Source: Cohnella herbarum
GTDB lineage: Bacteria > Bacillota > Bacilli > Paenibacillales > Paenibacillaceae
Assembly (NCBI RefSeq): GCF_012849095.1
Contig: NZ_CP051680.1
Coordinates: 8,284,251-8,348,250, forward strand
Length of the DNA: 64,000 nucleotides
Direction of reading: 5' to 3'
The position numbers were made by a program, and so were the translations under genes. Positions within the stretch are counted from its first letter, which is position 1, and each line of letters starts with the position of its first letter. The notes beneath the pieces are model-generated. The model did no database searches. It was not told the origin of the DNA and was given only the letters and a program-made list of their open reading frames with translations. Positions 31,114 through 64,000 of the stretch are shown here, one piece after another.

Positions 31114-31148
31114 GGTTCGAGCAACCATCTTGAAACGGAGTGGATAGA

Positions 31149-37077: not shown

Positions 37078-37311
37078 ATGTATGATGCCCAATGGCGAGA
37101 TTGGAAGCCGTTCGTAAGTCCGCATGATCCATGTCCGCCTATCCGCGTGAAATGGTACATCGTTCCGCCGAATCAGTACATTACGTTCCAGCCGATGAAC
37201 TTGCCCCAATACTCGTTGGACGAAGCGTTGCGCCGAGGTACGTTATGGCCTGCGTTCTATAGTCCTTATCCTTCCAGGCGAGCGGTTAAAGGGGGGAAAG
37301 GCAATGGTTGA
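37078..37311 (+). CDS. cotJA: Spore coat associated protein CotJA
   Basis: 77 residues with the CotJA pattern: PFVSPHDPCPPI, a proline-rich centre with NQYITFQP and LPQYS, and EALRRGTLWPAFYSPY. RBS AAGGAGGT lies just upstream of ATG 37078. CotJ proteins are mother-cell-made inner coat components in Bacillus. It overlaps cotJB by 8 bases in the usual cotJABC order. Confidence 0.92.
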   Translation: MYDAQWRDWKPFVSPHDPCPPIRVKWYIVPPNQYITFQPMNLPQYSLDEALRRGTLWPAFYSPYPSRRAVKGGKGNG

Positions 37312-37675
37312 CCGGTTCGAGCGGAATGAGCGCAACGATCGCAACGACCGCGATGGACGCAACGATCGCAACGATCGCAACGATCGCAACGACACCGTCA
37401 AGAAACCGGATAACGGCTTGCGGGGCGACGAAGCTTATTGCCTAGAACTTCTGGAGCTGCAGAAAGTAGATTTCGCGTTAGTCGAGCTCACTTTATATTT
37501 GGATACCCATCCTACGGATATGCAAGCCGTTCAGCAGTTTAATCAATTGGCGCAACGAAGGCAACAAATCGCCAACGAGTTCGAGATGAGATACGGTCCT
37601 TTGCTGCAATTTGGCCAAAGCTTTAGCCGATTCCCATGGCAATGGGTGGATACCCCTTGGCCATGGCAAGTCTAA
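37304..37675 (+). CDS. cotJB: Spore coat protein CotJB with repeat-rich N-terminus
   Basis: 123 residues. The conserved part from about residue 42 (LELLELQKVDFALVEL, LDTHPTD, YGPLLQFGQ and a W-rich end) is CotJB. In front is a low-complexity extension of about 38 residues made of N-D-R repeats, encoded by 9-bp units of CGCAACGAT type at 37331-37393. The extension has no counterpart that I recall in Bacillus CotJB. RBS GGGGGGAAAGG precedes the ATG. Confidence 0.88.
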   Translation: MVDRFERNERNDRNDRDGRNDRNDRNDRNDTVKKPDNGLRGDEAYCLELLELQKVDFALVELTLYLDTHPTDMQAVQQFNQLAQRRQQIANEFEMRYGPLLQFGQSFSRFPWQWVDTPWPWQV

Positions 37676-37696
37676 GACGAGGGCGGTGTAGAGAAG

Positions 37697-37954
37697 ATGT
37701 GGATCTACGAAAAAAAACTCCAGTATCCGGTAAGGGTAAGTAAATGCGATCCCCGTATGGCCAGATATTTGGTGGAGCAATACGGAGGAGCGGACGGAGA
37801 GCTATCGGCGGCATTGCGATATTTGAATCAACGCTATACGATTCCGGATAAAGTCATCGGGTTATTGACGGATATCGGCACGGAAGAATTCGCGCCAACA
37901 ACATATACATCATATTATTCCGATAATTTGGGTTGTAGAATCAATTCAAACTGA
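37697..37954 (+). pseudogene. cotJC: cotJC, 5' part only, cut by prophage insertion
   Basis: The first 66 codons are CotJC, a manganese-catalase-like spore coat protein (KKLQYPVRVSKCDPRMA, EQYGGADGELSAALRYLNQ, GLLTDIGTEEFA). After GTEEFA the frame runs into phage DNA and ends at 37954 after 19 unrelated residues. In CotJC the expected continuation is HLEM, so the cut falls inside the E-E-x-x-H-x-E metal-binding motif and removes the His ligand and the rest of the enzyme. The missing 3' part should lie at the far end of the prophage, beyond this window. Confidence 0.88.
37885..37915. other. Probable left attachment junction (attL)
   Basis: cotJC homology stops at codon 66 (37892-37894), and the integrase stop codon is at 37915-37917. 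The crossover must lie within or just before this short interval. Large serine integrases use short cores, often two bases; GCGC at 37892-37895 is at the break. The exact core needs the right end of the element. Confidence 0.6.
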
Positions 37955-39492
37955 TCCGCGAGCCCCGACCATCGTCCGCCTACATCCTTCTTATAAACCG
38001 CCATTTCAAGCACAGATTTAAGAAGCTCGTTTCGCTTCGATGGATCTTCGGTATTGGGATAGAGCTCGATTACTTTCGTGACCTGCGGTATAACCTCAGA
38101 CCTTGCCTCGATACGTTTCCCCTCGTTAGATAACTCTTCCTCCAGTGTTATTATTCCATTCTCTATTTCGTCTATTTCTTTCTTGGTTGCTATTGATCGT
38201 GTCATGTAAGTATCTAAATCGTATATCTTGCGCTCTAGAAGATTGTGTTGCTCATTTTTCTGCTCATTCAATATGACGAGTTTCTTCCTCATCCCCTCAA
38301 TGGATGAGCGTATTACTTTGAGTTTCAATTCATCATCCGTTTTTGCGGGGTTTACATCATCCCATTGTTTACTGTATTGATCCAGCCATATTTTGAGGCC
38401 GTCTAAAATCCGTTCTTCGACGATATGAATGTAGGTGCTCACCGTTGGGCAATTTGGTTTGATACACATTAGAGATGATGAACCGTTCTTATAAGGTCTA
38501 CCTATCATAGTCGAGCCACAGATCGCGCAGCGTACGAGAGAGGCGAGAGGATTCGTAACTTTACCATCCCATGTACGTGGGTGGTTGTTCTTTCTTAGAA
38601 GCTCTTGTGTTCGCTCAAAAACCTCCTCCGATATAATCGCAGGATGTAGCCCTTTTTCTTCTGTTGTGTCCTCTCTAGCAAGCCTAGGGCGGCTCTTCCC
38701 GGCTCTTTTACGCACAACTGGACGGGTGCCCCATTTCACATTCCCAATATAAGTCGGGTTCCTTAGAATGCCATTAACAGTCGCGACGGTCCAACTGGAA
38801 TTTTTCATCGTTGGAACTTTCAGCACTTCATTGAGATAACGAGCTATTCTAGCTGTTCCCATACGCTTCTCCGGGTCAGGCTCGTTGTACAAATTAAATA
38901 TCAATTCTATTATCGGTGCTTGTTCTGGGTTAATTTCAAGCGTCCATCCCTTGCCGGGAAGTTTCTTTCGATCGTATCCATATGGAGCGATATTTCCTAT
39001 ATATTTACCTTCAGCAACAGCGGTCTTTCTCCCGTTCTGTTGCCGTCGATTAATAGTCTTAAACTCTCGGCGGCTCATGTATAGGCCGAATTCGAAATAC
39101 TCCTCGTCATCCGCATTGTTTGGGTCGAATGTCCTCATCGGTGTGACGATCAGGGTATTGGAATATTTAAACGCTTGAGCGACGATGCCTTGATCCATAG
39201 TATCCCCACGTGCCAAACGTTCGACCTCGACGACAAGTATACCCGTCCATTTCCCTTCGTCAACATCAGACAAGAGACTCATCATATCGGGGCGCTCCGA
39301 GATTCGTTCACCCGATATGGGTTTTTCCTGATAAATTTTCGAGATGGTGATATTGTGCCTTTTGGCCAAATCAAATAAGACTCGTTTATGTTTTGCATAA
39401 GTATCTTCATCACCGCGAGATTCGGCTTCTAGATCAACACGTGATTTACGGAGATACGCACCATAGTCTCCGGGTGGTAGTTGTCCGTACAT
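37915..39492 (-). CDS. Large serine recombinase (phage integrase)
   Basis: 525 residues. The N-terminal resolvase domain starts AYLRKSRVDLE, with the catalytic Ser in RKSR, and continues with VVEVERLARG. A recombinase domain (about 165-280) follows, then a zinc ribbon (CAICGS...CIKPNC) and a C-terminal coiled-coil region. Such integrases join attP and attB without supercoiling and need a separate directionality factor to excise. Its stop codon is about 20 bases from the cotJC break, as expected for an integrase beside attL. No excision factor is recognisable in this window. Confidence 0.93.
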   Translation of the reverse strand: MYGQLPPGDYGAYLRKSRVDLEAESRGDEDTYAKHKRVLFDLAKRHNITISKIYQEKPISGERISERPDMMSLLSDVDEGKWTGILVVEVERLARGDTMDQGIVAQAFKYSNTLIVTPMRTFDPNNADDEEYFEFGLYMSRREFKTINRRQQNGRKTAVAEGKYIGNIAPYGYDRKKLPGKGWTLEINPEQAPIIELIFNLYNEPDPEKRMGTARIARYLNEVLKVPTMKNSSWTVATVNGILRNPTYIGNVKWGTRPVVRKRAGKSRPRLAREDTTEEKGLHPAIISEEVFERTQELLRKNNHPRTWDGKVTNPLASLVRCAICGSTMIGRPYKNGSSSLMCIKPNCPTVSTYIHIVEERILDGLKIWLDQYSKQWDDVNPAKTDDELKLKVIRSSIEGMRKKLVILNEQKNEQHNLLERKIYDLDTYMTRSIATKKEIDEIENGIITLEEELSNEGKRIEARSEVIPQVTKVIELYPNTEDPSKRNELLKSVLEMAVYKKDVGGRWSGLADQFELILQPKLSE

Positions 39493-39531: not shown

Positions 39532-40215
39532 TCAATCGTAACCATATATCCTCCGGAGCCTATCTAATGCGTCAGAATTTTTCTTCCATAAAGTTTCATT
39601 TCTTTGGTGTGGCTGAAATATTTGATCCACCTTCGGAACTTGAATAACTTCTTGTTGTTTATGATTTTGATGTGATTTAGTTCGTGAGGAATGAAATGAC
39701 ATCTCTTCCTCTGCTAGGAAGTAGTCACTTCTTACGAGTTCTGATTCTAAATGTCGTATTCCAAGATGCGAGCATCGGATGGCCACGGAGATCGGAGAGA
39801 CACGAAGCCAGGATGCCATCTCCTTAATAGAAGTTTGTTCATTATGTACAAACCAAAATAACTCGTCTGGCATCAAGAGGCATGAGGCAAATTTATTAGC
39901 CTGAACCTCTTCATACCGGTCCTCATCGTGTGTTTGAGTAACGTCCGATTCGTGCCCAAGAAAATAATGTCCGATTTCGTGAGCAGTTGAAAATCGACGA
40001 CGTGTATAGGGATGATCCGAATTGATCGTGATGTAAATCCCATTGTTGCTCGGGACGATCATTCCGCAGGTATTTTGATGGAGTGGCAATTTTCTAAATT
40101 TTAATCCAAAGTGGAGCCCGACTTTTCTTAGGGAAATAGGTGAGGTTGACGATCTTCGATGGATGTCTATTCCCGATTGTTTCAACAGATACTTTGTGTC
40201 TGGTGAGTAGGGCAT
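39532..40215 (-). CDS. ImmA/IrrE-family metallopeptidase
   Basis: 227 residues. The zinc motif is FSTAHEIGHYFLGHE (HExxH) with a downstream acidic stretch; NKFASCLLMPDELF is typical of the ImmA/IrrE domain (DUF955). ImmA proteases cleave the cognate phage repressor to trigger induction in ICEBs1 and phi105-like elements. It sits directly downstream of the CI-like repressor on the same strand, matching that switch. The C-terminal 60 residues are hydrophilic with no known domain. Confidence 0.87.
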   Translation of the reverse strand: MPYSPDTKYLLKQSGIDIHRRSSTSPISLRKVGLHFGLKFRKLPLHQNTCGMIVPSNNGIYITINSDHPYTRRRFSTAHEIGHYFLGHESDVTQTHDEDRYEEVQANKFASCLLMPDELFWFVHNEQTSIKEMASWLRVSPISVAIRCSHLGIRHLESELVRSDYFLAEEEMSFHSSRTKSHQNHKQQEVIQVPKVDQIFQPHQRNETLWKKNSDALDRLRRIYGYD

Positions 40216-40238: not shown

Positions 40239-40649
40239 TTAGTTTCCGTCTTTTTTCTCTGTTTCTATCATCTCGAACACTTTTAATATGTCCTTCAACT
40301 GCTCCTTGTTCATTTTAGAGGCAGTCCTTAGGATAGCTGTCGCTTCAAGTGCTGCTCCTTTTTTTTGAAGCTTATCAAGAAGTTCGATGATTTCTGGGTC
40401 GACATTATGATTACTACCAGATTTTGATGTTGTAGAACGGGCATCGGTTCTTCCCATTAGATAATCAACTGAAACCTCAAAGAAGTTAGCGAACTTTTCG
40501 ATCGTTTCCATATCTGGAGTTCTAGCGCCTGTTTCGTAGCCAGATATCGTTGATTCCGCAAGTGTAAACTTTTCACCAAATTGTTTTGCGGTTAATCGCT
40601 TTTCTTTTCTAAGTTCCCTCAATTTTTGGGGAAACACATGAACCACCAC
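40239..40649 (-). CDS. CI-like phage repressor (XRE family)
   Basis: 136 residues with an N-terminal Cro/CI helix-turn-helix (LTAKQFGEKFTLAESTISGYETG) and VDYLMGR, the common end of such domains. The helical C-terminal half may oligomerise or be the ImmA cleavage region; there is no LexA-type Ser-Lys protease, so RecA-driven self-cleavage is unlikely. It is divergent from the Cro-like gene, with operators of TTCGC-N5-GCGAA type between them. It would keep the prophage silent until cleaved. Confidence 0.87.
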   Translation of the reverse strand: MVVHVFPQKLRELRKEKRLTAKQFGEKFTLAESTISGYETGARTPDMETIEKFANFFEVSVDYLMGRTDARSTTSKSGSNHNVDPEIIELLDKLQKKGAALEATAILRTASKMNKEQLKDILKVFEMIETEKKDGN

Positions 40650-40790: not shown

Positions 40791-41018
40791 ATGAGTGCAC
40801 TTACACAGGCTCGTATCCTGGCAGGTCTATCCATTGAAGAAGCTGCAAGAGAAATCGGTATACCTTCGGGGTATTTGTCTGAAATAGAGAACGGAAAGCG
40901 TGGCGTAAGCTCTGAAAGAGCGGATGTTATCGCCAGTGTATACCAAAAAAGTAAGGACCAAATTTTTTTGCCCACTCGCTACGCGATACGCGAAGTTTTA
41001 TCAACGAACTCTGCATAG
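40791..41018 (+). CDS. Cro-like XRE regulator
   Basis: 75 residues, essentially one helix-turn-helix domain (LSIEEAAREIGIPSGYLSEIENGKRG). The ATG follows TTAGGGGGTG. It is the first gene of the rightward early transcript and divergent from the CI-like repressor, the classical Cro position. A fifth operator copy lies inside its 3' end. Confidence 0.85.
   Translation: MSALTQARILAGLSIEEAAREIGIPSGYLSEIENGKRGVSSERADVIASVYQKSKDQIFLPTRYAIREVLSTNSA
40980..40994 (+). promoter_or_regulatory. Operator O5 inside the cro-like gene
   Basis: TACGC-gatac-GCGAA matches the O1-O4 layout and lies in the last codons of the Cro-like gene, about 200 bases from O4. A distant copy could support looping or repression of the genes that follow. 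Confidence 0.55.
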
Positions 41019-41242: not shown

Positions 41243-41485
41243 ATGCCCGTCCTCCAGATACAGCCGCATATAACTCCTAATGGAGGGGATGCGAACATGA
41301 AGAAACGGAAAAGTCTACCTGTTCCAAACATTGTTAAGACTTATAAATTTGGTAACTCTACGGTCCATATTGCTGATAATTTTGTTGCTAAAACCCCGGA
41401 CGATATCAAAAAGGTGTTGGACCGTTATCATGCTGCGGGTTGGGCAATCATCGAAGAACTTATAGCTAAAGGTGAGCCCGTGTAA
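41243..41485 (+). CDS. Small phage protein, unknown function
   Basis: 80 residues from ATG 41243, 9 bases after AGGAGG. A second ATG at 41297 has its own good RBS (GGAGGGG) and would give 62 residues starting MKKRKSLPVPN; it may be the true or an alternative start. The C-terminal half (ADNFVAKTPDDIKKVLDRYHAAGWAI-type) looks like a small folded domain. I do not recognise the family. Confidence 0.65.
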   Translation: MPVLQIQPHITPNGGDANMKKRKSLPVPNIVKTYKFGNSTVHIADNFVAKTPDDIKKVLDRYHAAGWAIIEELIAKGEPV

Positions 41486-42517: not shown

Positions 42518-42718
42518 ATGACATTGAGATTCCGTTGGAACAAGGAAGGATCAGAGAAAGCGGTAATCTGCATGGCCTACGGCCGCGTAAGAACGAAGCG
42601 AATGGATATCGATGAAGCCTTGCATCATACCATCGCACTCCATGCTCGAAATCCAGAAGCTATTCCTAAAAGAACTTTGGACAGGCTTCGAAAGATTGTT
42701 ATGGCAAAAGCAGGATAA
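42518..42718 (+). CDS. Small phage protein, unknown function
   Basis: 66 residues from ATG 42518 after AAAGGGG. It is basic, with an MAYGRVRTKRMDIDEALHH centre. No domain is recognised. Its end overlaps the RBS of the replication initiator gene. Confidence 0.6.
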   Translation: MTLRFRWNKEGSEKAVICMAYGRVRTKRMDIDEALHHTIALHARNPEAIPKRTLDRLRKIVMAKAG

Positions 42719-42731
42719 AGGAGTTGAGGGG

Positions 42732-43622
42732 ATGCCGGACAGTTACCCCTTTCCGATGTACTCGGGGATATTTGAACCAAAACATTATAAACAGATTGGC
42801 GCGGCCCTATGGTTCTTCTCCTGGTGCATCAACTCTACAACAAAGGAGTGCGAGGAGGAGGACGGAGTAACGTGGGGTTACGTGCACGGCAAGAAGCCCA
42901 TGAAGCTATCCGAACTCGCTGCACCTTTTGGAGTCAACGATAAAACGGTAGGGAGATGGATAGAAACTCTCGAAGAGCACGGCTATATTCGTACAACAAG
43001 AGCACCTTACGGGCTAATTGTTGCAGTACGAAATAGCAAAAAGAGAACAGACAAAAATGTCCGATCTGATGATATAGAACAGACAAATATGTCCGATCTC
43101 TCAATGCCAGAACAGACAAAAATGTCCGATCACGGAGTTATTTTACCGGAGAGAACGGACAGTAATGTCCTATCTAATAAAGACTTAGATCTTACTATTA
43201 CTACCTCTATTAATAAGTCACCGATCATTCAACTGATCGAATCATATTGCAATCTTCATAACAAAATTGAATTTCATTTGAAAGACAAGGAACGAACCCT
43301 CATGTTCAAAATGATCGGAGATGGTATACCCGTTTCACTGATCATCGAAACCATGCAGGCGGTGTATAGGGAGCGTAGCGTTGAAACGAATATTACGTCA
43401 TTTCTGTACTACAAAAGCGTTATTTATCAAGCTTGGGAAACGGTAAAAGCCATTACCGAGGGAGTGCCAATCTCTCCGGTCGCCCTTGGTGAAGATTCCA
43501 TAACTAACAGGGTGCCAGCCCCTGTAGTCGCCCTTGGCTCGCCGCGAAGAACCAGACCACAACAAGAACTTGACGATTTACGGAGAAAGCGAGAGGAGGC
43601 ACGACAACTTGAACAGGGTTGA
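42732..43622 (+). CDS. Phage replication initiator / replisome organiser
   Basis: 296 residues from ATG 42732, 8 bases after AAAGGAG. The N-terminal third is a winged-helix domain (MKLSELAAPFGVNDKTVGRWIETLEEHGYIRT). The middle is low complexity, with three to four repeats of the type T-x-x-N/K-M-S-D, probably flexible and possibly the DNA-origin region. The C-terminal part is a DnaD-like helical stretch. It precedes the helicase loader and helicase genes, the standard order for initiator, loader and helicase. The call rests on context plus the wHTH. Confidence 0.7.
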   Translation: MPDSYPFPMYSGIFEPKHYKQIGAALWFFSWCINSTTKECEEEDGVTWGYVHGKKPMKLSELAAPFGVNDKTVGRWIETLEEHGYIRTTRAPYGLIVAVRNSKKRTDKNVRSDDIEQTNMSDLSMPEQTKMSDHGVILPERTDSNVLSNKDLDLTITTSINKSPIIQLIESYCNLHNKIEFHLKDKERTLMFKMIGDGIPVSLIIETMQAVYRERSVETNITSFLYYKSVIYQAWETVKAITEGVPISPVALGEDSITNRVPAPVVALGSPRRTRPQQELDDLRRKREEARQLEQG

Positions 43623-43956
43623 GGTTATCGACTTACTCATGGAGATCAAAGAGGAATACCCATTCTTCGACGTTAGCGACGAAAATATCGAACGTCATTT
43701 TAGATACCTTAAGGATTTTCCCTTCGAAGCAGCGATGCGAAACGTGGAGCAATACATCAAAACTGACAGCAAGAAGCATCCGGGTATCGCAGACATTCGC
43801 GGCCGTCTCGGTGATCAGTTAGATAGTCAAAGGAGCAAAGAAGAAACAGCGAATTACTTCGCCCAACTGGAAGCATCGAGGCTTTGTAACTCTCCTCCTC
43901 CAACCGGCTACTGGGAACATATGCGAACGTTGATACGAGGTGAATCGGTTGAGTGA
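43609..43956 (+). CDS. G39P-like helicase loader/inhibitor
   Basis: 115 residues from TTG 43609, 9 bases after AGGAGG. The pattern VIDLLMEIKEEYPFFDV, the FRYLKDFPFEAAMRNVEQYI helix and HPGIADIRGR fit the SPP1 G39P-type loader family. Such proteins bind the replicative helicase and deliver it to the initiator-bound origin. It overlaps the helicase gene that follows. Confidence 0.7.
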   Translation: MNRVEVIDLLMEIKEEYPFFDVSDENIERHFRYLKDFPFEAAMRNVEQYIKTDSKKHPGIADIRGRLGDQLDSQRSKEETANYFAQLEASRLCNSPPPTGYWEHMRTLIRGESVE

Positions 43957-45388
43957 GATGAACGACATGAATAACTGGATGGATATGCAACCACCTGTTG
44001 ATATTGAAGCAGAGCAAGCCGTTTTAGGAGCCATCCTCCTCGAAGCAGAGGCCATTGAAACAACTCGCGAGAAATTACAAGGTGGAGAGTTCTCGGAGAT
44101 GGCTCATAAAAAAATCTATCGTGCTATGATCGCAATCGTCGATTCGGGTGAACCGCTCGACGTTCGTTCGCTCACGGCTAAGTTGGAGGATAGCAAGGAG
44201 ATCGACAAGGTCGGCGGTGTTATGTATCTAGCACGACTGGCTGATTCAACACCAACTGCTGCGAACGTCGGATGGTATGCCGATCGGGTGGCAGACATGT
44301 TCCTTAGGCGGGAAACCTACGAGACTATGACTGAGCTATGGCGTCAGGCCATGAAGCAAACCGACACGAACGCGTTCCTTGCAACGGCGGAAATGGCAAT
44401 GAGCAAGATTTCCGACAGGGCAGCTCCGCGGCAGGAATTCAAGCTTATGAAAGACATTTTGCAAGAAGTGATGGAGCAAACAGAAATCAGATACGCCAAC
44501 CGACATAGTTATCGCGGTGTCACTGGCATATCTTCCGGGTACGTCGACTTAGACAATATGACATCCGGGTTTCAAAAAGGCGACTTGATAATCGTTGCTG
44601 CTCGTCCGTCCGTAGGGAAAACAGCGTTTGCTTTGAACATCGCTCAAAATGCAGCGAAACATATCATTATTGACGAAGAAACAATCATTCTTGGAAGATC
44701 AATAGCTATTTTCAGCCTCGAAATGTCTGCTAGCCAGCTAGTAACACGCATGGTCAGTGCGGAAGGAAACATAGACGCAAGCAGAATGCGTACAGGGTTT
44801 TTGGAGGGAGAAGACTGGGAAAAGTTGTCGATGTCAATTGGGAAATTGCACGATGCACAAATTTATATCGACGATACCCCGGGCATCACAGTCAATGAGA
44901 TTCGCTCCAAATGCCGGCGACTAAAGAAGGATAAAGGGCTCGATATGATCTTAATTGATTACCTCCAGCTCATACAGGGCAGCGGCCGCCGCGGGGCGAA
45001 CCGTCAGGAAGAGGTATCGCAGATATCCCGGACATTAAAGCAGATTGCACGCGAGTTGGAAGTACCGGTTATCGCACTCTCCCAACTCTCCCGAGGAGTG
45101 GAGCAACGCCAGGACAAACGTCCAATGATGTCCGACCTAAGGGAATCAGGGGCGATAGAGCAGGACGCGGATATCGTTGCATTCCTATACCGAGATGACT
45201 ATTACGATAAGGAATCCGAGAAAAAGAACATTATCGAGATTATCATCGCCAAGCAGAGGAACGGACCAGTCGGAACAGTCGAACTCGTTTTCTTTAAGCA
45301 GTTCAATAAGTTCGTAAGTCTAGATCGTTCCCATTCCTCATCATTTGCACCATTGAAACCACCCAGGACTGATGATGAGACGGATTAA
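43949..45388 (+). CDS. dnaB: Replicative DNA helicase DnaB (phage)
   Basis: 479 residues from TTG 43949, 5 bases after GAGGTGA; GTG 43940 and ATG 43958 are alternatives. The N-terminal DnaB domain reads DIEAEQAVLGAILLE. The RecA-like core has Walker A ARPSVGKTAF, Walker B MILIDYLQLI and the arginine-rich SQLSRGVEQR loop. It unwinds phage DNA at the fork as a hexamer. It is full length, so the phage brings its own helicase together with a loader. Confidence 0.95.
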   Translation: MSEMNDMNNWMDMQPPVDIEAEQAVLGAILLEAEAIETTREKLQGGEFSEMAHKKIYRAMIAIVDSGEPLDVRSLTAKLEDSKEIDKVGGVMYLARLADSTPTAANVGWYADRVADMFLRRETYETMTELWRQAMKQTDTNAFLATAEMAMSKISDRAAPRQEFKLMKDILQEVMEQTEIRYANRHSYRGVTGISSGYVDLDNMTSGFQKGDLIIVAARPSVGKTAFALNIAQNAAKHIIIDEETIILGRSIAIFSLEMSASQLVTRMVSAEGNIDASRMRTGFLEGEDWEKLSMSIGKLHDAQIYIDDTPGITVNEIRSKCRRLKKDKGLDMILIDYLQLIQGSGRRGANRQEEVSQISRTLKQIARELEVPVIALSQLSRGVEQRQDKRPMMSDLRESGAIEQDADIVAFLYRDDYYDKESEKKNIIEIIIAKQRNGPVGTVELVFFKQFNKFVSLDRSHSSSFAPLKPPRTDDETD

Positions 45389-51900: not shown

Positions 51901-52227
51901 GTGAAAAAGGATGAGTACGACAAAGAATTGGCGAGATTGCGCGAACTATTCGCAAAGGCGGACCCGGATAAGGCAGATTTGGTTGATGGTCTTTTGAAGG
52001 ATGCAGCCTTCTTAAAATCTGAGAACGCGGAGTTGCGCGGTGTGCTGGCGAAGACCGGAACGGTCAAAGTGCATCCGACTAACCCGATGTTGCAAAAGCC
52101 GGTCGAAGCGGCCCGTCAGTACCTGAAAAACGTCAATTCCTATTCCGTCATCATAAAGACGCTGAACGGCATCTTGAATAAGAACATCATTGACGACGAT
52201 GATGACGACATGAAGGAATTCGAATGA
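51901..52227 (+). CDS. terS: Terminase small subunit, P27-like
   Basis: 108 residues from GTG 51901, 9 bases after AAGGTG; the frame is open further upstream without an RBS. DKADLVDGLLKDAAFLKSEN, ELRGVLAKTGTV and NVNSYSVIIKTLNGIL match the helical pattern of P27-family small terminases, which usually pair with this kind of TerL. It ends with an Asp run and overlaps terL by four bases (ATGA). I consider it the best candidate for the working TerS. Confidence 0.62.
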   Translation: MKKDEYDKELARLRELFAKADPDKADLVDGLLKDAAFLKSENAELRGVLAKTGTVKVHPTNPMLQKPVEAARQYLKNVNSYSVIIKTLNGILNKNIIDDDDDDMKEFE

Positions 52228-53933
52228 ACGCACCTTGGTCTTCCTGGCTGCATGAGTATATGCACAAATGCCGGTCCGGTGAAATCCTTGTCGGCCAGGA
52301 ACTAATGCAGATGTTCGACATTTTGGACGAGCTACTGCATGATCCGGACATTCGTTTTGATCCAGAAGACGCGAACAAGCGAATCAAGTTCATCGAAGAA
52401 AAATGCCGACATTTCGAGGCCCCCTATGCGGGAAAGCCGTTCAAGCTGGAATTGTTTCAAAAGGCGTTCGTAACCGCGCTACATGCGTTCAAGATGTTTG
52501 AAGAGGAAATTAGCAAATGGGTGCGCCTGTTCCAGGACGTGCTTTTTTTGGTTGGACGGAAGAATGGCAAGACGCCGCTTATTGGCGGGCTGAACCTTGC
52601 CGAGTTTTTCTGCGGGCCTGAAGGGATCAAGATCCTTTGTTCCTCTAATGACTACGAGCAAGCTGCGCTAATGTTCGACGCAATTAACGCCATGCGCGAG
52701 GAATCTCCATCACTGGAGAAGGTGACACGAAAGAACCTGACGGGAATCTACTTTGGTAACCCAAAACGCCGGACGAAGAAGAGTAAATTCAGCTATCGCA
52801 ATAAGGGCCATATCAAGAAGATATCCGCTAAGACGGGCGCAAAGGAAGGACGGAATATCGCGGTCGGCGCTGCTGATGAAGTCCACGAAATGAAGGACAA
52901 TTCCGGTGTCATGCCGATTCGTCAATCTCTATCGACGCAAGATGAGCCGCTGTATTACGAGTTAACGACTGAGGGATTTACCAACGACGGGTACCTTGAT
53001 GGACGAATGGTTGAGGCCCGTCAAGTCCTTAACCGAGAATTGCATCGTCCGCGTTGGCTCGTCTGGATATATACGCAGGACAGCGAACAGGAAGTTTGGC
53101 AGGACGAACGGACATGGGTGAAATCGAACCCCGGACTCGGCACGATCAAGAAATGGTCCTTCCTTCGGACGATGGTCGAGGAGTCGAAAACGAATAAGGC
53201 GACACGCATATTCGTCTTGGCGAAGGATTTTAATATCAAACAGAATAACGCGGCGGCCTGGTTGACTGCGGATGAAATTACGAACCAAGATGATGTGCCT
53301 TTTGATCTGGAGAAGATGCGCGGACGTATTGCGATCGGTGGTGTCGACTTATCGAAGTCGGGAGATCTTGCTTGCGCACGTGCTTTGTTCCTGATGGGCG
53401 GGAAAAAGTACACCGTTTCGCAATATTTCATTCCCGAATCAAAGCTCTCTCAGCTCTCCAAAGAAGATTTGGAAAAGTACAAATCATGGATTCGCGAGGG
53501 TCGGATGACCGTGAGTGATGGGAATGAAAACGACTTCCGTTTGGTGACGCAATGGTTCGTCAAACTGGTTAAATCATACGGCATCCGCTTCCTCAAGATC
53601 GGATATGACAAATGGTCAGCAATTTATTGGGTGAAGGAAATGGAGGATGCGGGTTTTGATATGGTTCGCGTGGCACAGGATTGGGCACCGATGTCCGAAC
53701 CGATGAAGCTGGTTGAAGCCGATCTTCGGAGCAACCTAATTTATTACAACAACGACAATCTGGATAAGTTTTGTCTGGAGAACACGGCCATTACCGTCAA
53801 TTCCAAAATGGAACAAATGCCGATCAAGGTACAGGGCAAGGACGATAGAAAGATCGACGGAGCGGTGACGCTCATCATTTGCTATCGGGCATATATCGAC
53901 AACCGAAGCGATTTTGTGCGATTGTCCGCATGA
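52224..53933 (+). CDS. terL: Terminase large subunit
   Basis: 569 residues. The ATPase has Walker A FLVGRKNGKTPL and Walker B with VGAADEVHEM. The nuclease domain has GGVDLSKSGDLA and GYDKWSA with conserved Asp. This is the HK97-type TerL (Terminase_1) motor that packages and cuts phage DNA. Length is normal. It is translationally coupled to the P27-like terS and followed by the portal gene. Confidence 0.95.
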   Translation: MNAPWSSWLHEYMHKCRSGEILVGQELMQMFDILDELLHDPDIRFDPEDANKRIKFIEEKCRHFEAPYAGKPFKLELFQKAFVTALHAFKMFEEEISKWVRLFQDVLFLVGRKNGKTPLIGGLNLAEFFCGPEGIKILCSSNDYEQAALMFDAINAMREESPSLEKVTRKNLTGIYFGNPKRRTKKSKFSYRNKGHIKKISAKTGAKEGRNIAVGAADEVHEMKDNSGVMPIRQSLSTQDEPLYYELTTEGFTNDGYLDGRMVEARQVLNRELHRPRWLVWIYTQDSEQEVWQDERTWVKSNPGLGTIKKWSFLRTMVEESKTNKATRIFVLAKDFNIKQNNAAAWLTADEITNQDDVPFDLEKMRGRIAIGGVDLSKSGDLACARALFLMGGKKYTVSQYFIPESKLSQLSKEDLEKYKSWIREGRMTVSDGNENDFRLVTQWFVKLVKSYGIRFLKIGYDKWSAIYWVKEMEDAGFDMVRVAQDWAPMSEPMKLVEADLRSNLIYYNNDNLDKFCLENTAITVNSKMEQMPIKVQGKDDRKIDGAVTLIICYRAYIDNRSDFVRLSA

Positions 53934-53957
53934 TCATACAAGAAAGGAGGAATGTGC

Positions 53958-55196
53958 GTGATTTTAATGGACGTTCTCCGGCGCTGGTCTATGGGGCGCA
54001 AGGAAAGCAAGTGGTTTCGGATGTTGAACGGAGGTATTCCCGTCTTCGGCCAGTTCGGGACAAACATTTACGCCTCAGACATGGTTCAAAACTGCATTAA
54101 CGTCATCGCAACGGAAATGAGTAAGTTGCAGCCACGTCATATTAAGACACGGGAGAATGAACAGACTGTTCCGAATGGAAATATTAACAGGCTGTTTCGG
54201 TTCGGGCCGAACCCGCTCATGACGACGAGCGAATTTATTGAAAAGAAGATTTGGCTGCTGATGATGAATTACAACGCCTTTATCGTCCCGATCTTTGATT
54301 CGGACTATAGTACCGGAATAGAACGGCGGACATATCGCGCGTTGTACCCGATCAACCCAAGCCGAGTTGAGTTTCTACAAGATCCGACTGGGGAACTGTT
54401 AATTCGCTTTTTCTTCCCATCCGGTGTTGACTTTACATTCCGTTATGCAGACGTGATTCACCTACGAAAGAAGTTTTCAGTCAATGAACTTATGGGCGGT
54501 GGTGCAGACGGGCAACCGGACAACGCAGCCCTACTCAAAGTCCTGCAAACCAATCATGCTCTTTCGCAAGGTCTGGAGCGTGCGGCAAGAATAAACGCTG
54601 CAATTCAAGGCATCTTGAAGGTCAATACTGTGCTTGATGATGATGGGATGAGAGCAGAGCGAGATCGGTTTGTAAAGCTTGTTGAATCAGGCGAAAATGG
54701 CATACTCCCAATGGATTTAAAGGGTGAATATACATCGGTCAAGGGCGACGCGAAGTTTATCGACAAAGATACACTTTCCTTCCTGCAACAAAGTATTTTG
54801 AACTGGTTCAGCGTCTCGTTGCCGATATTGACCGGTGAATTTACGGATGACGAGTACCAAGCGTTTTATGAAAAAGCGCTTGAGCCACTCGTCATTTATT
54901 TTGGCCAAAAATACTCTAAGGTGCTATTTACGGAGCGGGAGCTGGATGTTGGTAACGAAATCGCTTGGTATCAGCGGGATATGAATTATTTATCCACCAA
55001 CTCCAAGATAAACATACTAAAAACGATGGGCGAACAAGGATTGTTAACGGACAATCAGAAGCTTGCGTTGCTAGGTTATCCGCCGATTCCGGGTGGCGAT
55101 CGCATTACGCAATCTCTCAACTACATTGACGTGAAGTTGATCAACCAATATCAAATGCAAAACAAATCCAAGGCGGTGACTGAAGATGAAAAATAA
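53958..55196 (+). CDS. Portal protein (HK97 family)
   Basis: 412 residues from GTG 53958, 7 bases after AAAGGAGG; ATG 53952 touches the RBS. The pattern SDMVQNCINVIATEMSKLQ, RLFRFGPNPLMTTSEFI and DEYQAFYEKALEPL is Phage_portal. It forms the dodecameric ring at the capsid vertex through which DNA enters. The protease gene overlaps its end by 11 bases. Confidence 0.92.
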   Translation: MILMDVLRRWSMGRKESKWFRMLNGGIPVFGQFGTNIYASDMVQNCINVIATEMSKLQPRHIKTRENEQTVPNGNINRLFRFGPNPLMTTSEFIEKKIWLLMMNYNAFIVPIFDSDYSTGIERRTYRALYPINPSRVEFLQDPTGELLIRFFFPSGVDFTFRYADVIHLRKKFSVNELMGGGADGQPDNAALLKVLQTNHALSQGLERAARINAAIQGILKVNTVLDDDGMRAERDRFVKLVESGENGILPMDLKGEYTSVKGDAKFIDKDTLSFLQQSILNWFSVSLPILTGEFTDDEYQAFYEKALEPLVIYFGQKYSKVLFTERELDVGNEIAWYQRDMNYLSTNSKINILKTMGEQGLLTDNQKLALLGYPPIPGGDRITQSLNYIDVKLINQYQMQNKSKAVTEDEK

Positions 55197-55830
55197 GACG
55201 TTGCCTCAAGGTATGGAGCGAGAGCGCCGGTCTTTTGCGGTTCCAGACCTTCGGGCTGATGGCGGGGATGGGATCATCCAAGGACATGCGGCTGTATTCG
55301 GACAAGAGGCGAATATTGGTGGTTGGTTCTTGGAGATCATTGAACGCGGTGCATTCGACAAGACGGATTTCAAGGATGTGGTCATGAGTTTTAACCACAA
55401 CCTCCAACAAATCCCGTTAGCCCGCAGTCGTAACAACAACGAAAATTCCACACTGCAATTAAGTGTGGATGATGCCGGATTGTTTACGCGAGCAACACTC
55501 GATACGGAAAACAACTCGGAAGCCAGATCTTTATATAGTGCAATTGGGCGTGGCGACATCTCAGGGATGTCGTTTATTTTTTCCGTCCGAGCTTCCGGTG
55601 TTTTCTGGGAAGGGCTTGATACAGAACTTCCCATCAGAAGGATCAAAGACATAGCTCGTGTGTACGAAGTATCTGCGGTATCTTTCCCGGCCTATGCCGG
55701 GACTGACATACAAGCTCGGGACGCGCAAGCGCTGGAGAGCGCCCGCGCTGCACTGGAGAGTGCGAGGTCGGGACTGGTGAGTCCTAAAAACGAGTTAGAA
55801 CTATTGAAAGCAAAACTAAACTTGCGCTAA
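55186..55830 (+). CDS. HK97-family prohead protease
   Basis: 214 residues. The family start GHAAVFGQEANIGGWFLEIIERGAF is followed by the catalytic His in SFNHNLQQIPLAR and the Ser in GDISGMSFIF. It cleaves the scaffold domain from the capsid protein during prohead maturation. It lies between portal and capsid genes, the standard order. Confidence 0.93.
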   Translation: MKNKTLPQGMERERRSFAVPDLRADGGDGIIQGHAAVFGQEANIGGWFLEIIERGAFDKTDFKDVVMSFNHNLQQIPLARSRNNNENSTLQLSVDDAGLFTRATLDTENNSEARSLYSAIGRGDISGMSFIFSVRASGVFWEGLDTELPIRRIKDIARVYEVSAVSFPAYAGTDIQARDAQALESARAALESARSGLVSPKNELELLKAKLNLR

Positions 55831-55850: not shown

Positions 55851-57137
55851 ATGAAAGAATGGCTGAAAAAACTGTTAAAACAAAAAGAAGAAAAACGCTC
55901 TGCTCTGAAACTACGCGGGGATAAGAGTGAAGACGTTCAAGAAGTGCGCTCGATCATCGGCGAGGTTGAAGAAATCGACAAGGAAATTACGGAGCTTCGC
56001 CAGCAAATCGAAACGCTTCCGGATGATCAAATCGCAGGCGGGGCAACCCTTCCGGCGGAAGGTCGTAGCCAGATGACTGCGGCAGGTGGAGCAGGTGGGA
56101 ATTCGGGACTTGCACAAGTATTGGCGTCCTACGGACTGACACAGCAACGCCAAGCAGATCCGGAGGATAGGTACGGATCGCTAGAATACCGGAAGGCGTT
56201 CATGGCCTTCGCTGTTACCGGCGAGATTAAGCCGGAGTTACGGGCTAATGCACAAACGACGACGGCTGACGTTTCAGCAGTTATTCCAACGACCATCCTG
56301 AACGAAGTTATTCGCAAGTTGGAAGTGCGTGGTCGTGTTTGGGGACGCGTTCGAAAGCTTAACATTAAGGGCGGCGTCGATGTACCGATCCTTTCTGTTA
56401 AGCCGGTTGCAACGTGGATCACGGAAACAACGCCTTCTGATCGTCAGAAGACGCAGGCGAACACGAAGGTATCTTTCAGCTACTACGGTCTCGAATGCAA
56501 AGTCGCGGTTTCCTTATTGGCCGATACGGTTACGCTTGATGGCTTTGAATCGTTGATCATTGATTTGATCGTTGAGGCGATGATCAAGGCACTAGAAGCC
56601 GCGATTGTCAGCGGTACAGGAGCGGGTCAACCGATGGGGATCACGAAAGATACGCGTGTACCGGCCGGGCAGATCGTGACGTTGGACCCGACGGAGATTC
56701 TCAACTATCAGCAATGGAAGAAGAAAGTTTTCGCGAAGCTTCCACTTGCATACAAGGCGGGCGCTGTGTTCTTCATGGCGAGCGGAACATTCGAAACGTA
56801 TATCGATGGCATGGTAGACGATGCAGGCCAGCCCATCGGGCGCGTGAATTACGGCATTACGAACGGCATTCAAGAGCGTTTCGCAGGTAAAGAGGTCATT
56901 TTGGTTGAAGATGACCTTATTCAACCTTTCGATACGGCTGCAACGAACGATGTGTTCGCAATCTTCTGCGATTTGACGAATTACGGGGTCAACAGCAACA
57001 TGCAATTGACGCTGTTCCGCTATCTCGACCACGATACGAACCAATGGGTCGACAAAGCGATCTTGATCGCTGATGGAAAGCTACTTGACCCGAACGGCGT
57101 CGTCATCGTGAAGAAGGCAGCCGGAAGCGGTACCTGA
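55851..57137 (+). CDS. Major capsid protein (HK97 fold)
   Basis: 428 residues. The first 110 form a charged coiled-coil delta domain (RSIIGEVEEIDKEITELRQQ) that would be removed by the protease. The rest is the HK97 fold with TTILNEVIRKLEVRG, LLADTVTLDG and SGTGAGQPMGI. RBS AAAGGGAGG precedes the ATG. Confidence 0.95.
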   Translation: MKEWLKKLLKQKEEKRSALKLRGDKSEDVQEVRSIIGEVEEIDKEITELRQQIETLPDDQIAGGATLPAEGRSQMTAAGGAGGNSGLAQVLASYGLTQQRQADPEDRYGSLEYRKAFMAFAVTGEIKPELRANAQTTTADVSAVIPTTILNEVIRKLEVRGRVWGRVRKLNIKGGVDVPILSVKPVATWITETTPSDRQKTQANTKVSFSYYGLECKVAVSLLADTVTLDGFESLIIDLIVEAMIKALEAAIVSGTGAGQPMGITKDTRVPAGQIVTLDPTEILNYQQWKKKVFAKLPLAYKAGAVFFMASGTFETYIDGMVDDAGQPIGRVNYGITNGIQERFAGKEVILVEDDLIQPFDTAATNDVFAIFCDLTNYGVNSNMQLTLFRYLDHDTNQWVDKAILIADGKLLDPNGVVIVKKAAGSGT

Positions 57138-60023: not shown

Positions 60024-60281
60024 ATGGGGTCCATGTATGCATGGGCCTCTCCGGATTACATGCTCGACCATATGAGCTTTGAACAAATTGTTATGTATTA
60101 TGACTATGGTTTAGAGCAAGAGGAAATCAAATCAAACATCTTGGTCGGTCGCTTAGCGGTCGGCCTTTTTGGTGCGAAAGAAAAGCCTAAGGCGAAGGTT
60201 ACTGAGGAAAAACCTGACCGTAAAGCGTTTCAAAACGCATACGGCAATCGAATCAAACGACCAGAAGGAGGGGCGACATGA
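60024..60281 (+). CDS. Tail assembly chaperone T domain (made by -1 frameshift)
   Basis: An open -1 frame of 85 codons from ATG 60024 that also reads back to the slippery site at 59979 with no stop. It is best seen as the T part of a GT fusion of about 208 residues (108 from G plus 100). The content (AWASPDYMLDHMSFEQIVMYYDYGLEQEE) is typical of T domains. No good RBS precedes ATG 60024, which favours frameshift expression. The tape-measure gene overlaps its last codon. Confidence 0.85.
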   Translation: MGSMYAWASPDYMLDHMSFEQIVMYYDYGLEQEEIKSNILVGRLAVGLFGAKEKPKAKVTEEKPDRKAFQNAYGNRIKRPEGGAT

Positions 60282-63200
60282 GTCTTCTCGGCAGTCTTAT
60301 TGTTAGTATATTGGGAAGTACCACGGGCTTGGATGAGGCTATTCGGGATGCCGAGCAATCTGTTGACCGATTTGGTAAGTCAATGGGTGATGTCGGGAAG
60401 TCCATGTCTCTTCTCGTAACGGCACCACTGGTCGGGTTAGGAGCACTAGCGATAAAGTCTTCTATTGAATTCGAATCTGCTTTCGCTGGCGTCCGGAAGA
60501 CCGTTGATGCCACAGAGGAGGAGCTCCAAGGTTTTCGAAAGGGAATATTGGACATGTCAAAGGAGATACCTGCTGCGGCAACTGAAATTGCTGCGGTTGC
60601 TGAAGCTGCGGGACAGCTAGGTATCAAGAACGAAGCTATATTAGGGTTTACGCGCACGATGGTTGATCTAGGTGTTGCGACTAACCTATCATCCGATGAA
60701 GCCGCAACTGCACTTGCTCGGCTGGCCAACATAACGCAAATGCCACAGGAGAACTTTGACAGACTCGGCAGCACGATCGTTGCTTTAGGTAATAATCTAG
60801 CGACAACAGAAGCGGATATCGTTGCGATGGGATTGAGGTTGGCCGGAGCAGGTAACCAGGTTGGGCTGACAGAAGATCAGATCCTCAGTTTCGCTGGCGC
60901 CTTATCTTCTGTTGGTATCGAAGCGGAAGCCGGTGGTTCAGCGGTATCCAGAGTAATGATTGATATGGCTCAGGCGGCAGCCACTGGTGGGAAAGCAGTC
61001 GGTGGATTTGCTGCTGTTGCGGGTATGAGCGCCAGTCAGTTCCAAAAGGCGTTTCAGGATGATGCAGCAGGGGCCCTTATATCCTTTATTGAAGGCCTTG
61101 GTCATATGAGTGATGCCGGTGAGAATGTATTCGGCGTCTTAGATGATCTTGGATTATCCGAGATACGCGTACGCGATGCGTTACTACGTGCATCCGGAGC
61201 AGGCGACTTGTTCCGCGAATCTTTGGAGATCGGATCTAAAGCATGGGAAGAAAACAATGCATTGTCGAATGAAGCTGCTCAACGATATGCAACCACAGAA
61301 TCTCGCTTGAAAATATTAAAAAATCGTTTTGATGATGTAATTGGGACGATCGGAGATGCGCTTGTTCCGGTCATGATGGAAGCCTTGGATGCCATGGAAC
61401 CGTTATTAAAATTGGTTTCAGATGCAGCGAATTGGTTTGCGAATTTAGACAGTTCAATGCAAAGAACAATTATCATAATCGCAGGTATTGCCGCCGCGAT
61501 TGGACCCGTACTTGTCGTTATTGGCACAGTTATAAGCTCGTTTTCGGCACTCTTGCCTGTGTTGGCTGCTATTGTCAGTCCGGTTGGGCTAATCGTTGCC
61601 GGTATAGCTGCGCTCGTTGCGGGTTTGGTGTATCTCTATAATACGAACGAGACGGTAAGAGAAACACTTAACGCGACATGGGAGTGGCTAAGCGCGACAG
61701 CGGGAACGGTATTCAACGCTATAAGAGATGTCGTACTTGCTGTATTCGGCGAAATCCAAGCTTTCTGGGATAAATGGGGAGCTGAGATCACGACATTCTT
61801 CACGGAAGTATGGGCCTTCGTCAGTGATGTCTTCACGGCTGTATTCAATACAATTAAAGAGATTGTGATGTCCATATTCGGAACGATCAAAGCTTTCTGG
61901 GATAAATGGGGAGCTGATATTGTTGCGGCTTTTAAAATATACTTAAATACTTTGAAAACCTTCTATTCAACAATTTTTGAAGCCATATGGACGTTCATCA
62001 AATTCATATTCGGTGAAATCAAGTCATTTTGGGACAAATGGGGAGATACGATCCTTCAAGCATTTAAGGATGTGTTTAAGATTCTTGAAATCGTTTGGAG
62101 CTCAGTATTCGACGCTATATTCACCGCGATAAAATTTATCTTTAACGCCATCAAAGCATTTTGGGACAAATGGGGAGATACGATAACGGTTGTATTTAAA
62201 ACCGTATTCGCCGTTGTAAAGGATGTATTCATTGGCGTCTGGAATGCGATAAAAATTGTCATTGAAACGGTAATCGGAGTCGTATCCGGCATTATTAAAG
62301 CTTTCCTCGCTGTATTGAAAGGCGACTGGAAAGGCGCTTGGGACGCGGTTAAAGGCGTCGCAGAGTCAATATGGGATGGTATCAAAAAGCTATTCTCGAC
62401 GGTCGGATCAACTATGATGCAGATTGGTAAAGACATTATGCGCGGCCTAATGGAAGGAATCAAGAGCATGGCTGGTGCTGTTAAAGATTCAGTCATGGAT
62501 GTTGCGACAGGTATAGGCGATGGATTTAAGAACTTTTTCGGCATCCATTCCCCATCGAAGCTGATGGCCGGTTACGGTGAGAATATATCTGAGGGCGTTG
62601 CGCAAGGCGTCAGTTATGCATCGTGGAAAGCGGAACAGGCGACAGCGGACATGGGGAAGAAAATAAAGAAGGAAGCGGATAAAGCAGCTAAGGCCGCCAT
62701 TGCGGCAGCGAAGAAACAATTCGAAGATTCGAAGACCTATATCGAAGCGCGCAAACAAGCGAATGAAATTTCCGCAACCCAGGAACTGGTCTTGTGGGAG
62801 AAATTGCAGGAAAAGTATAAGGTCGGAACGAAGGAGCGCATCGCGGTAGATAAGGAAGTGAACCGCCTTCGCAAGGAATTGGACAAGGAAGCGTATGAAA
62901 CCTCCAAATCCTATATCGATGCCAAGAAACAAGCGAATCAACTCTCTCTTACGGCTGAGTTAACCGCTTGGGAGCGGGTACAGAGCCGCTATCTAGCAGG
63001 TAGCAAAGAGCGCGAGGATGCGGAGAAGAATGTCATGCGTGTGCGGCAGGAAATTTATAATGAACTAATTGCCGCAAATGAAAATTACCTCTCCAGGACG
63101 AAAGAAATCAATGAGAACGTCGAAGCCGAAGAAAAGCGCTTGAACGAGGAATATGCGAAAGCGGTGGACGATCGGGCGAAATCGATTTCTTCCTTCGCCG

Positions 63201-64000
63201 GTCTGTTTGACGAAGTGGTGATGAAGGCGGACAAGTCCGGACAGGACTTGCTGAATAACCTACGTGGGCAAGTAAGTTACTTGGCTGAATGGTCATCCAA
63301 CATCGAGCAACTAGCGGCAAAAGGAATCGACAAAGGCTTGCTCGAAGAATTGCGTCAAATGGGGCCAAAGGCGGCTCCCGAGTTGGCTGCACTCAATCAA
63401 TTGACGAATACCGAATTGCAGGAGTACCAATCGTTATGGCTCACAAAAACGTCACAAGCACGTTCGGTTGCAACGAAAGAATTAGAGGGATTAAAGCAGG
63501 ATACGTCCATTAAGATATCGGAATTACACAAGGATGCAGCGGCTAAACTCGAAATTGTGCGCCTAGAGTTTGAGACGAAGATCAAGGCGATTCGCGGAAA
63601 TGCAACGAATGAGTTCTCGGCGATGAAGGCGAGTATGCCTGAGATCGGGAAACAAGCGATCAAGGGACTTATGAATGGATTAGAAAATATGAAGGGGCCA
63701 TTGGTTGCGCAAGCGAAGAGCATTGCTGATGCTGTAAGCGGCACGATTAGAAAGGCACTTGATATACGCAGTCCATCACGTGTCATGATGGGTCTCGGTG
63801 AATATATCGCCGAGGGTTTGGCAAAAGGAATCGAGATGCAGACGGGGATCGTCGAACAGGCTGCACAAGGTATGGCTGATGCTGCGGCAATTAGCGTATC
63901 ACTCCCCGAAGTTGGCGAAGTGAACAAACGTCTGTCTGCGCCTTCGTCCGCTAACATTATGGATCAATTTACCGCTGGGGAATCACTATCAAATGGAATG
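60278..64000 (+). CDS. Tape measure protein, 3' end outside window
   Basis: Starts at ATG 60278 after AAGGAGGGG and stays open to the last base (1,241 codons). Features in order: a TP901-1-like core domain (FRKGILDMSKEIPAAATEIAA; QLGIKNEAILGFTRTMVDLG); hydrophobic helices at about 408-455; four exact-period 44-residue repeats with FWDKWG; a membrane-like and Lys/Glu-rich coiled-coil region; and two FGIHSPSK / DIRSPSRVM elements. It sets tail length and is ejected with DNA. The many minus-strand open frames over it are shadows. Confidence 0.93.
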   Translation, partial: MSLLGSLIVSILGSTTGLDEAIRDAEQSVDRFGKSMGDVGKSMSLLVTAPLVGLGALAIKSSIEFESAFAGVRKTVDATEEELQGFRKGILDMSKEIPAAATEIAAVAEAAGQLGIKNEAILGFTRTMVDLGVATNLSSDEAATALARLANITQMPQENFDRLGSTIVALGNNLATTEADIVAMGLRLAGAGNQVGLTEDQILSFAGALSSVGIEAEAGGSAVSRVMIDMAQAAATGGKAVGGFAAVAGMSASQFQKAFQDDAAGALISFIEGLGHMSDAGENVFGVLDDLGLSEIRVRDALLRASGAGDLFRESLEIGSKAWEENNALSNEAAQRYATTESRLKILKNRFDDVIGTIGDALVPVMMEALDAMEPLLKLVSDAANWFANLDSSMQRTIIIIAGIAAAIGPVLVVIGTVISSFSALLPVLAAIVSPVGLIVAGIAALVAGLVYLYNTNETVRETLNATWEWLSATAGTVFNAIRDVVLAVFGEIQAFWDKWGAEITTFFTEVWAFVSDVFTAVFNTIKEIVMSIFGTIKAFWDKWGADIVAAFKIYLNTLKTFYSTIFEAIWTFIKFIFGEIKSFWDKWGDTILQAFKDVFKILEIVWSSVFDAIFTAIKFIFNAIKAFWDKWGDTITVVFKTVFAVVKDVFIGVWNAIKIVIETVIGVVSGIIKAFLAVLKGDWKGAWDAVKGVAESIWDGIKKLFSTVGSTMMQIGKDIMRGLMEGIKSMAGAVKDSVMDVATGIGDGFKNFFGIHSPSKLMAGYGENISEGVAQGVSYASWKAEQATADMGKKIKKEADKAAKAAIAAAKKQFEDSKTYIEARKQANEISATQELVLWEKLQEKYKVGTKERIAVDKEVNRLRKELDKEAYETSKSYIDAKKQANQLSLTAELTAWERVQSRYLAGSKEREDAEKNVMRVRQEIYNELIAANENYLSRTKEINENVEAEEKRLNEEYAKAVDDRAKSISSFAGLFDEVVMKADKSGQDLLNNLRGQVSYLAEWSSNIEQLAAKGIDKGLLEELRQMGPKAAPELAALNQLTNTELQEYQSLWLTKTSQARSVATKELEGLKQDTSIKISELHKDAAAKLEIVRLEFETKIKAIRGNATNEFSAMKASMPEIGKQAIKGLMNGLENMKGPLVAQAKSIADAVSGTIRKALDIRSPSRVMMGLGEYIAEGLAKGIEMQTGIVEQAAQGMADAAAISVSLPEVGEVNKRLSAPSSANIMDQFTAGESLSNGM
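61740..62190 (+). repeat. Four 132-bp repeats within the tape measure gene
   Basis: The FWDKWG codons begin at 61763, 61895, 62027 and 62159, an exact 132-bp (44-residue) spacing, with similar FGEI/IKAF sequence before each. The repeats differ at many bases, so they are older than the 127-bp repeats at 47041. Confidence 0.88.

Follow-up and report, generated by a model that had tools for sequence, protein, structure and literature searches.

In this genome, the sporulation gene cotJC, part of cotJABC, is split by an element that has a flanking repeat and its own site-specific recombinase gene. From its genes, the element looks like a complete temperate siphophage of about 37 kb. The interruption is potentially reversible and in frame, it affects the sole copy of cotJC found, and it is comparable to the interruption of spsM by SPbeta. 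Precise integration, together with the possibility of precise excision, is as good as shown, and we consider it likely, if well short of certain, that cotJC is rebuilt during sporulation. Chance is not a reasonable explanation for the split, because the repeat, the phage dyad, the integrase and the reading frame all fit together and relatives show the arrangement again. Since related bacteria carry other, unrelated elements in cotJC, the gene looks like a favoured dock for elements able to leave at spore formation. Intervening elements in sporulation genes are of a known kind; we did not find cotJC described as a target, nor its repeated use by distant integrases.

The interrupted cotJC gene and its prophage

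The window, which means the whole stretch of DNA analysed, covers the final 64 kb of contig C1 (8,348,250 bp; genome size 8.52 Mb), up to the last base of the contig. The genes cotJA (37078..37311, plus strand; PF11007 CotJA, E 2.8e-11), cotJB (37304..37675, plus strand; PF12652 CotJB, E 3.5e-28) and cotJC start in that order within 37078-37893. Directly upstream of cotJ, a 1914-aa ORF (31140-36884) appears by eye to encode a secreted, repeat-bearing surface protein. The 5' part of cotJC (37697..37893, plus strand) matches positions 1-68 of the Mn_catalase profile PF05067 (E 3.8e-27). It was claimed in the initial annotation that the gene breaks inside its metal-binding motif next to a serine integrase gene, and both points are borne out: 65 codons and two bases are intact up to TEEFA, followed by 19 foreign codons and a stop ending at 37954, and the integrase gene lies on the opposite strand, with its end 21 bases past the repeat core. 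The 3' part with HLEM, which was expected at the right end of the element, is present outside the window at C1:11302-11685, near the first base of C1 (locus L004; EEFAHLEM..., PF05067 profile positions 52-198). With a circular chromosome assumed, the two halves lie 37,419 bp apart across the record start, and because the element spans this point, it is contiguous there only under that assumption.

An 11-bp direct repeat, GAAGAATTCGC, is found at both ends of the element, as the attL core at 37883..37893 and again at L004:11302-11312. Next to the attL core, the phage arm CCAACAACATATAC (37895..37908) is the inverted repeat of the arm adjoining attR. When the flanks were joined in silico, an uninterrupted 189-aa CotJC with E-E-F-A-H-L-E was obtained, and joining of the inner ends gave an attP in which the two arms of a perfect 14-bp inverted repeat enclose 16 bases. 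The centre of the dyad, read off the repeat alignment, is the GA at 37886-37887 in the second Glu codon of EExxHxE. The cotJC halves have no stop and show a dN of 0.020 to the nearest intact copy. A second, intact cotJC, which had been raised as a possibility, was not found: the whole-genome search with PF05067 gave only two places, both of them cotJC halves, and no second Mn-catalase gene.

Judged from genes alone, the element has integrase, repressor, replication, packaging, head, tail and lysis genes. The large serine integrase (37915..39492, minus strand) contains Resolvase (PF00239), Recombinase (PF07508) and Zn_ribbon_recom (PF13408) domains, and when it was compared with solved structures, strong matches were obtained only with SprA/YokA of SPbeta (E 3e-48 and 5e-48), a third match being weak. 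It is adjoined by genes for an ImmA/IrrE-type peptidase (39532..40215, minus strand; PF06114) and a repressor-type HTH protein (40239..40649, minus strand; PF01381), and the gene of a small HTH protein (40791..41018, plus strand; PF01381, PHROGs transcription regulators) diverges from the repressor. Ten scanned proteins matched PHROGs. Six of them are encoded on the plus strand of the window: a DnaD-like helicase loader (42612..43622; PHROG 7498), a DnaB-like helicase (43940..45388; PHROG 19), the large terminase (52224..53933; PHROG 9), the portal protein (53952..55196; PHROG 12), the head maturation protease (55186..55830; PHROG 80) and the major head protein (55851..57137; PHROG 10). The other four are Dit, a tail/minor head protein, a holin and an amidase, whose genes lie downstream in L004, where the element continues past the window end to L004:11301. 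A long ORF (60278..64000, plus strand; 1282 aa including its continuation at the contig start) matched no family and is tape-measure-like by size and place only. The tail region of the prophage also contains a tyrosine recombinase gene (PF00589; L004:4851-5843) and a radical-SAM/SPASM gene with a weak PADLOC match to viperin models (L004:3459-4463). The last gene before attR (L004:10183-11265), a typical spot for a phage-borne defence gene, encodes a 360-aa protein with AbiJ N-terminal domain 3 (E 8.4e-54).

Split cotJC genes in related bacteria

The genome_contigs scan confirmed seven relatives of the integrase, each with a cotJC piece beside it (one about 0.8 kb off), and cotJC was in two pieces in all six genomes of these relatives that were examined. 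Within the same genus, the gene is split in five of 37 genomes, including this one (G000, G005, G018, G025 and G032). When 143 Paenibacillaceae genomes were searched with the 62-aa 5' piece, 127 gave a match, and cotJC is split in 11 of these, again including this one (frames below 185 aa); the 3' half was found for all 11, and each pair gives 189 aa when joined. As a control we used yabG, a longer sporulation gene with one known intervening element in another genus. A match was obtained in 130 of these 143 genomes; no yabG is split by an element, and that of G055 is broken within 0.9 kb. The difference between 11/127 and 0/130 corresponds to a Fisher p of 3.4e-4 with this genome and 6.9e-4 without it, for a single control gene and genomes that are related to one another. 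In the class-wide sample, the 5' piece was matched in 100 of 151 genomes, and four of the five genomes of family f17 have a split cotJC, all four joinable to 189 aa.

Wherever both halves were found (22 of 22 genomes), they could be joined to 185-189 aa without a stop, including eight genomes in which they lie on different contigs (G025, G041, G042, G097, G104, G110, G157 and G160). The junction giving the best restored protein was chosen by script, so the crossover points with cores of 2-6 bases are not independently fixed. Outside this count are L006, whose 5' half was not seen, G216, for which no 3' half turned up, G022, which shows a gap of 31 bp but no element, G182, where the break coincides with contig ends, and G192 and G275, which matched partially or weakly. 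Additional partial copies of cotJC in G010 (L021:2756-2914) and G038 (C7:42897-43130) were also left uncounted; they contain stops, lie 1-2 kb downstream of cotJC and are possibly scars of past insertions.

The elements occupy three insertion points in cotJC and use at least three distant families of integrase. Site 1 (codons 62-65) holds 12 elements, including the one studied here, and their integrases are 44-66% identical to its own. Five elements occupy site 2 (codons 75-77): the integrases of G032 and G307 form a third family (51% mutual identity, about 20-31% to the rest), and those of G267, G297 and G277 are 36-44% identical to the site-1 family. At site 3 (codons 120-125) there are six elements, with integrases 52-91% identical to one another and about 19-29% identical to the others compared. 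Some elements have their integrase gene towards the 5' half of cotJC, others towards the 3' half. Most informative is the element of G307, which measures 2,658 bp and contains one serine integrase gene, a gene for 49 aa next to attR and an ORF of 112 aa that has no Pfam match; a remnant reduced to so little suggests that there is value in retaining the means of excision as such.

Several further observations were made at these sites. The cotJC element of G277 (L127:5212-13689) has a CRISPR-Cas locus inside (cas1, cas3, cas4, cas6 and cas7). At attL of the G104 element (L046), 3 kb outside the full integrase gene, there is a 52-aa fragment with 56% identity to the integrase C-terminus, as if two elements were stacked in one site. 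Truncated CotJC proteins from Bacillus, Neobacillus, Hazenella, Laceyella, Croceifilum and others have a match that ends right after MIATM[VI]YK, which is the site-2 point (P0138, P0144, P0145, P0148, P0153, P0165, P0188, P0198, P0205 and P0216), and in another lineage CotJC ends with TEE[LM]AP at site 1 (P0236, P0237 and P0239).

The candidate excision factor and its leader motif

The best candidate for the recombination directionality factor is the 62-aa product of 41297..41485 (plus strand; model m728254f8628b), a function that we infer for a conserved protein that has a homolog in 11 of the 12 site-1 elements and at 11 of the 15 viral_contigs loci. It had no Pfam or PHROG match, and its structure and profile matches to SprB were not significant, leaving no detectable homology. 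Leader alignment, codon analysis and a scan gave a GTCC-N14-CATA motif ahead of the gene (41249..41270, plus strand). In the alignment of 20 of 23 distinct leaders, from which L065 (a near copy of L059) and L006 and L066 (spacing misfit) were omitted, CATA is invariant and is preceded by GTCC (GTAC in two), with a gap of 14 bases in 17 leaders and 11 bases in three.

These leaders bear on the alternative that the directionality factor is some protein other than the 62-aa one, or that the motif reflects a coupled leader peptide or a phage operator, with another gene controlling excision. Most members do have a leader start codon and a ribosome site, the three gaps of 11 instead of 14 bases amount to one codon less, and the links to SprB are weak, all of which would suit a peptide or another controller. 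However, the fixed bases include a codon third base, which is G in 17 of 20 leaders, with P, A, E, Q, L, S or D as the encoded residue, as well as the first bases of codons whose amino acid varies, and the leader of G118 is out of frame with the gene, so that DNA, and not only peptide, is conserved here. No structure was predicted for the leader, and GGACAA...CATA is common to the 2.66-kb element, which is not phage-like, and to the site-3 family, whose proteins are dissimilar. We regard this alternative as rather unlikely, and continue with the 62-aa protein as the most likely factor.

The small genes of the two other families gave no tblastn link to the 62-aa gene. Those of G307 and G032 have GGACAA-N11-CATA at the same place, and those of site 3 have GGACAA-N9-CATA in six of six elements, so the spacing differs between families and members (14, 11, 9 or 11 bases). 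Either pattern combined with a ribosome site and a start was found at 20 places in 602,555 bp, 17 of which are these genes, and at none in the reversed sequence, the pattern having been written partly from the same data: it was set after the site-1 leaders, G307, G032 and G097 had been viewed, and the other five site-3 members are homologs of the G097 gene. G104 escaped the scan, and the pattern is not matched by L006 or L066. G267, G297 and the examined parts of G277 yielded no small gene with the motif. A scan with strict sigma-E/sigma-K -10 patterns gave 13 hits, six of them at candidate factors and none in the element studied here, whose leader CATATAACTC matches neither strict pattern.

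In the DNA upstream of sprB, AGACAA-N11-CATATAAT is present in all four SPbeta-group phages examined. GGACAA resembles a SpoIIID box. According to the available parts of the sources, the start used for sprB in the sporulating mother cell was mapped to 20 nt ahead of the start codon, with a -10 of sigma-E/sigma-K type (PMC4191935), the skin excision factor of C. difficile requires sigma-E and SpoIIID (PMC5025042), and in B. subtilis repression was associated with SpoIIID sites overlapping those of the polymerase (PMC517825). This last point calls for caution in taking GGACAA as an activator site; by analogy, repression would be no less frequent than activation where GGACAA overlaps a promoter.

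Proposed mechanism and comparison with known systems

In the explanation that we favour, and consider fairly probable as a whole, a temperate siphophage would have entered the only cotJC of the host by means of a large serine integrase resembling SprA, at the codon for the second glutamate of EExxHxE. The integrase and the phage directionality factor, most likely the 62-aa protein, would recombine attL with attR, releasing 37.4 kb and leaving an exact cotJC. On induction, the factor would probably be supplied from the phage early operon, and in the sporulating mother cell probably from a promoter located at the CATA motif that directly precedes its gene. CotJC would be rebuilt in the mother cell, and the spore chromosome would retain the phage. 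In B. subtilis, cotJ is expressed in the mother cell. It had been proposed in the initial annotation that excision restores cotJC in this cell. The structural half of the proposal stands, in that cotJC is the sole copy and its in-frame interruption is potentially reversible. For the developmental half, the timing and cell type of excision, we infer from comparison: the recurring different elements, the halves without stops or frameshifts, the 2.66-kb element and the candidate factor with its sprB-like motif point towards it, and the failure of its own CATA motif to fit the strict sigma-E and sigma-K -10 patterns scanned speaks against it.

The element may instead be an ordinary temperate phage whose integrase reads a conserved codon run, which would excise only on lytic induction and whose lysogens would sporulate without a dispensable CotJC. 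Distant serine integrases with a common target gene are a known general pattern, for example in a Mg-chelatase-like gene and a prolyl isomerase gene (PMC10083194, in the part available), and recurrence alone is therefore no proof of a link to sporulation. The candidate factor also sits in the early phage region, and mutants of two C. difficile CotJC homologs are described without a marked coat defect in the accessible text of PMC11222575. On the other hand, yabG is also a sporulation gene and was never found split by an element (0/130), the halves are intact in 22 of 22 genomes where both were found, the motif is common to three families, and there is a 2.66-kb remnant; we consider an ordinary phage unlikely. 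An assembly error or a dead gene fragment is very improbable: the element does span the record start, where contiguity depends on circularity, but contiguous split loci occur in other assemblies and the halves are free of stops with a dN of 0.020.

Beyond this single prophage, cotJC may be a convergent developmental dock, struck at three points across Bacilli by at least three distant serine integrase families whose dissimilar factors would have converged on one mother-cell motif (GGAC/GTCC...CATA), with CotJC made only from a chromosome just freed of its element. The carriers would range from complete phages through CRISPR-bearing and metabolic islands to the 2.66-kb integrase-plus-factor element, each choosing the target independently. 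Our confidence in this joint reading is evenly balanced. A gene struck so repeatedly is a replicated natural experiment on why cotJC is hit, whether its rebuilding is selected and whether dissimilar excision factors acquired the same mother-cell switch. It also yields sets of integrases, candidate factors and att sites for testing the reversal of serine integrases, and, if the explanation is true, a catalase-like spore-coat enzyme is under phage control.

Among known systems, the closest likeness is to SPbeta in spsM of B. subtilis (SprA integrase, SprB factor; PMC4191935, available in part), a prophage in a spore-envelope gene with a serine integrase of the same family and a small gene with a CATA-type motif at a similar distance from its start. 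Unlike SPbeta, the present element targets cotJC, measures 37 kb and not 134 kb, and has an integrase 29.7% identical to YokA of SPBc2 and a candidate factor without detectable homology to SprB, and its excision is predicted from sequence. Close kinship with SPbeta (Spbetavirus) is not supported by this integrase identity, by the difference in size or by the SprB matches, which are confined to seven Bacillus records. Like skin in sigK, and the C. difficile skin with its factor CD1234 (sigma-E, SpoIIID; PMC5025042, partial text), the element lies in a mother-cell gene and has a small, here candidate, excision factor, whereas sigK encodes a regulator and cotJC a coat protein. The intervening elements gin in gerE, vfbin in spoVFB, vrin in spoVR and yin in yabG likewise use serine recombinases in other sporulation genes, and gin shows that such an element need not be a phage, as is also the case for the 2.66-kb and 7.7-kb cotJC elements; unlike cotJC, none of these targets is described in the available parts of the sources as struck at three points by distant integrases (PMC5595907, PMC4191935, PMC10747680).

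The sporulation genes named as split in the same parts of these three papers are sigK, spsM, spoVFB, spoVR, gerE and yabG, and the accessible text of PMC11222575 describes a CotJC-like gene as a neighbour of phage phi027, not as split. No published account of cotJC split by an intervening element was found in the literature searched, outside which most subscription papers fall, and an earlier report may exist. For Paenibacillus phage phiIBB_Pl23, which is an isolated phage, no integration site was found in the available part of PMC6070908. Its integrase is 48% identical to the one studied here, its homolog of the candidate factor is 44% identical, and just past its integrase gene it has ACAGAAGAG (reverse strand), which resembles the site-1 core.
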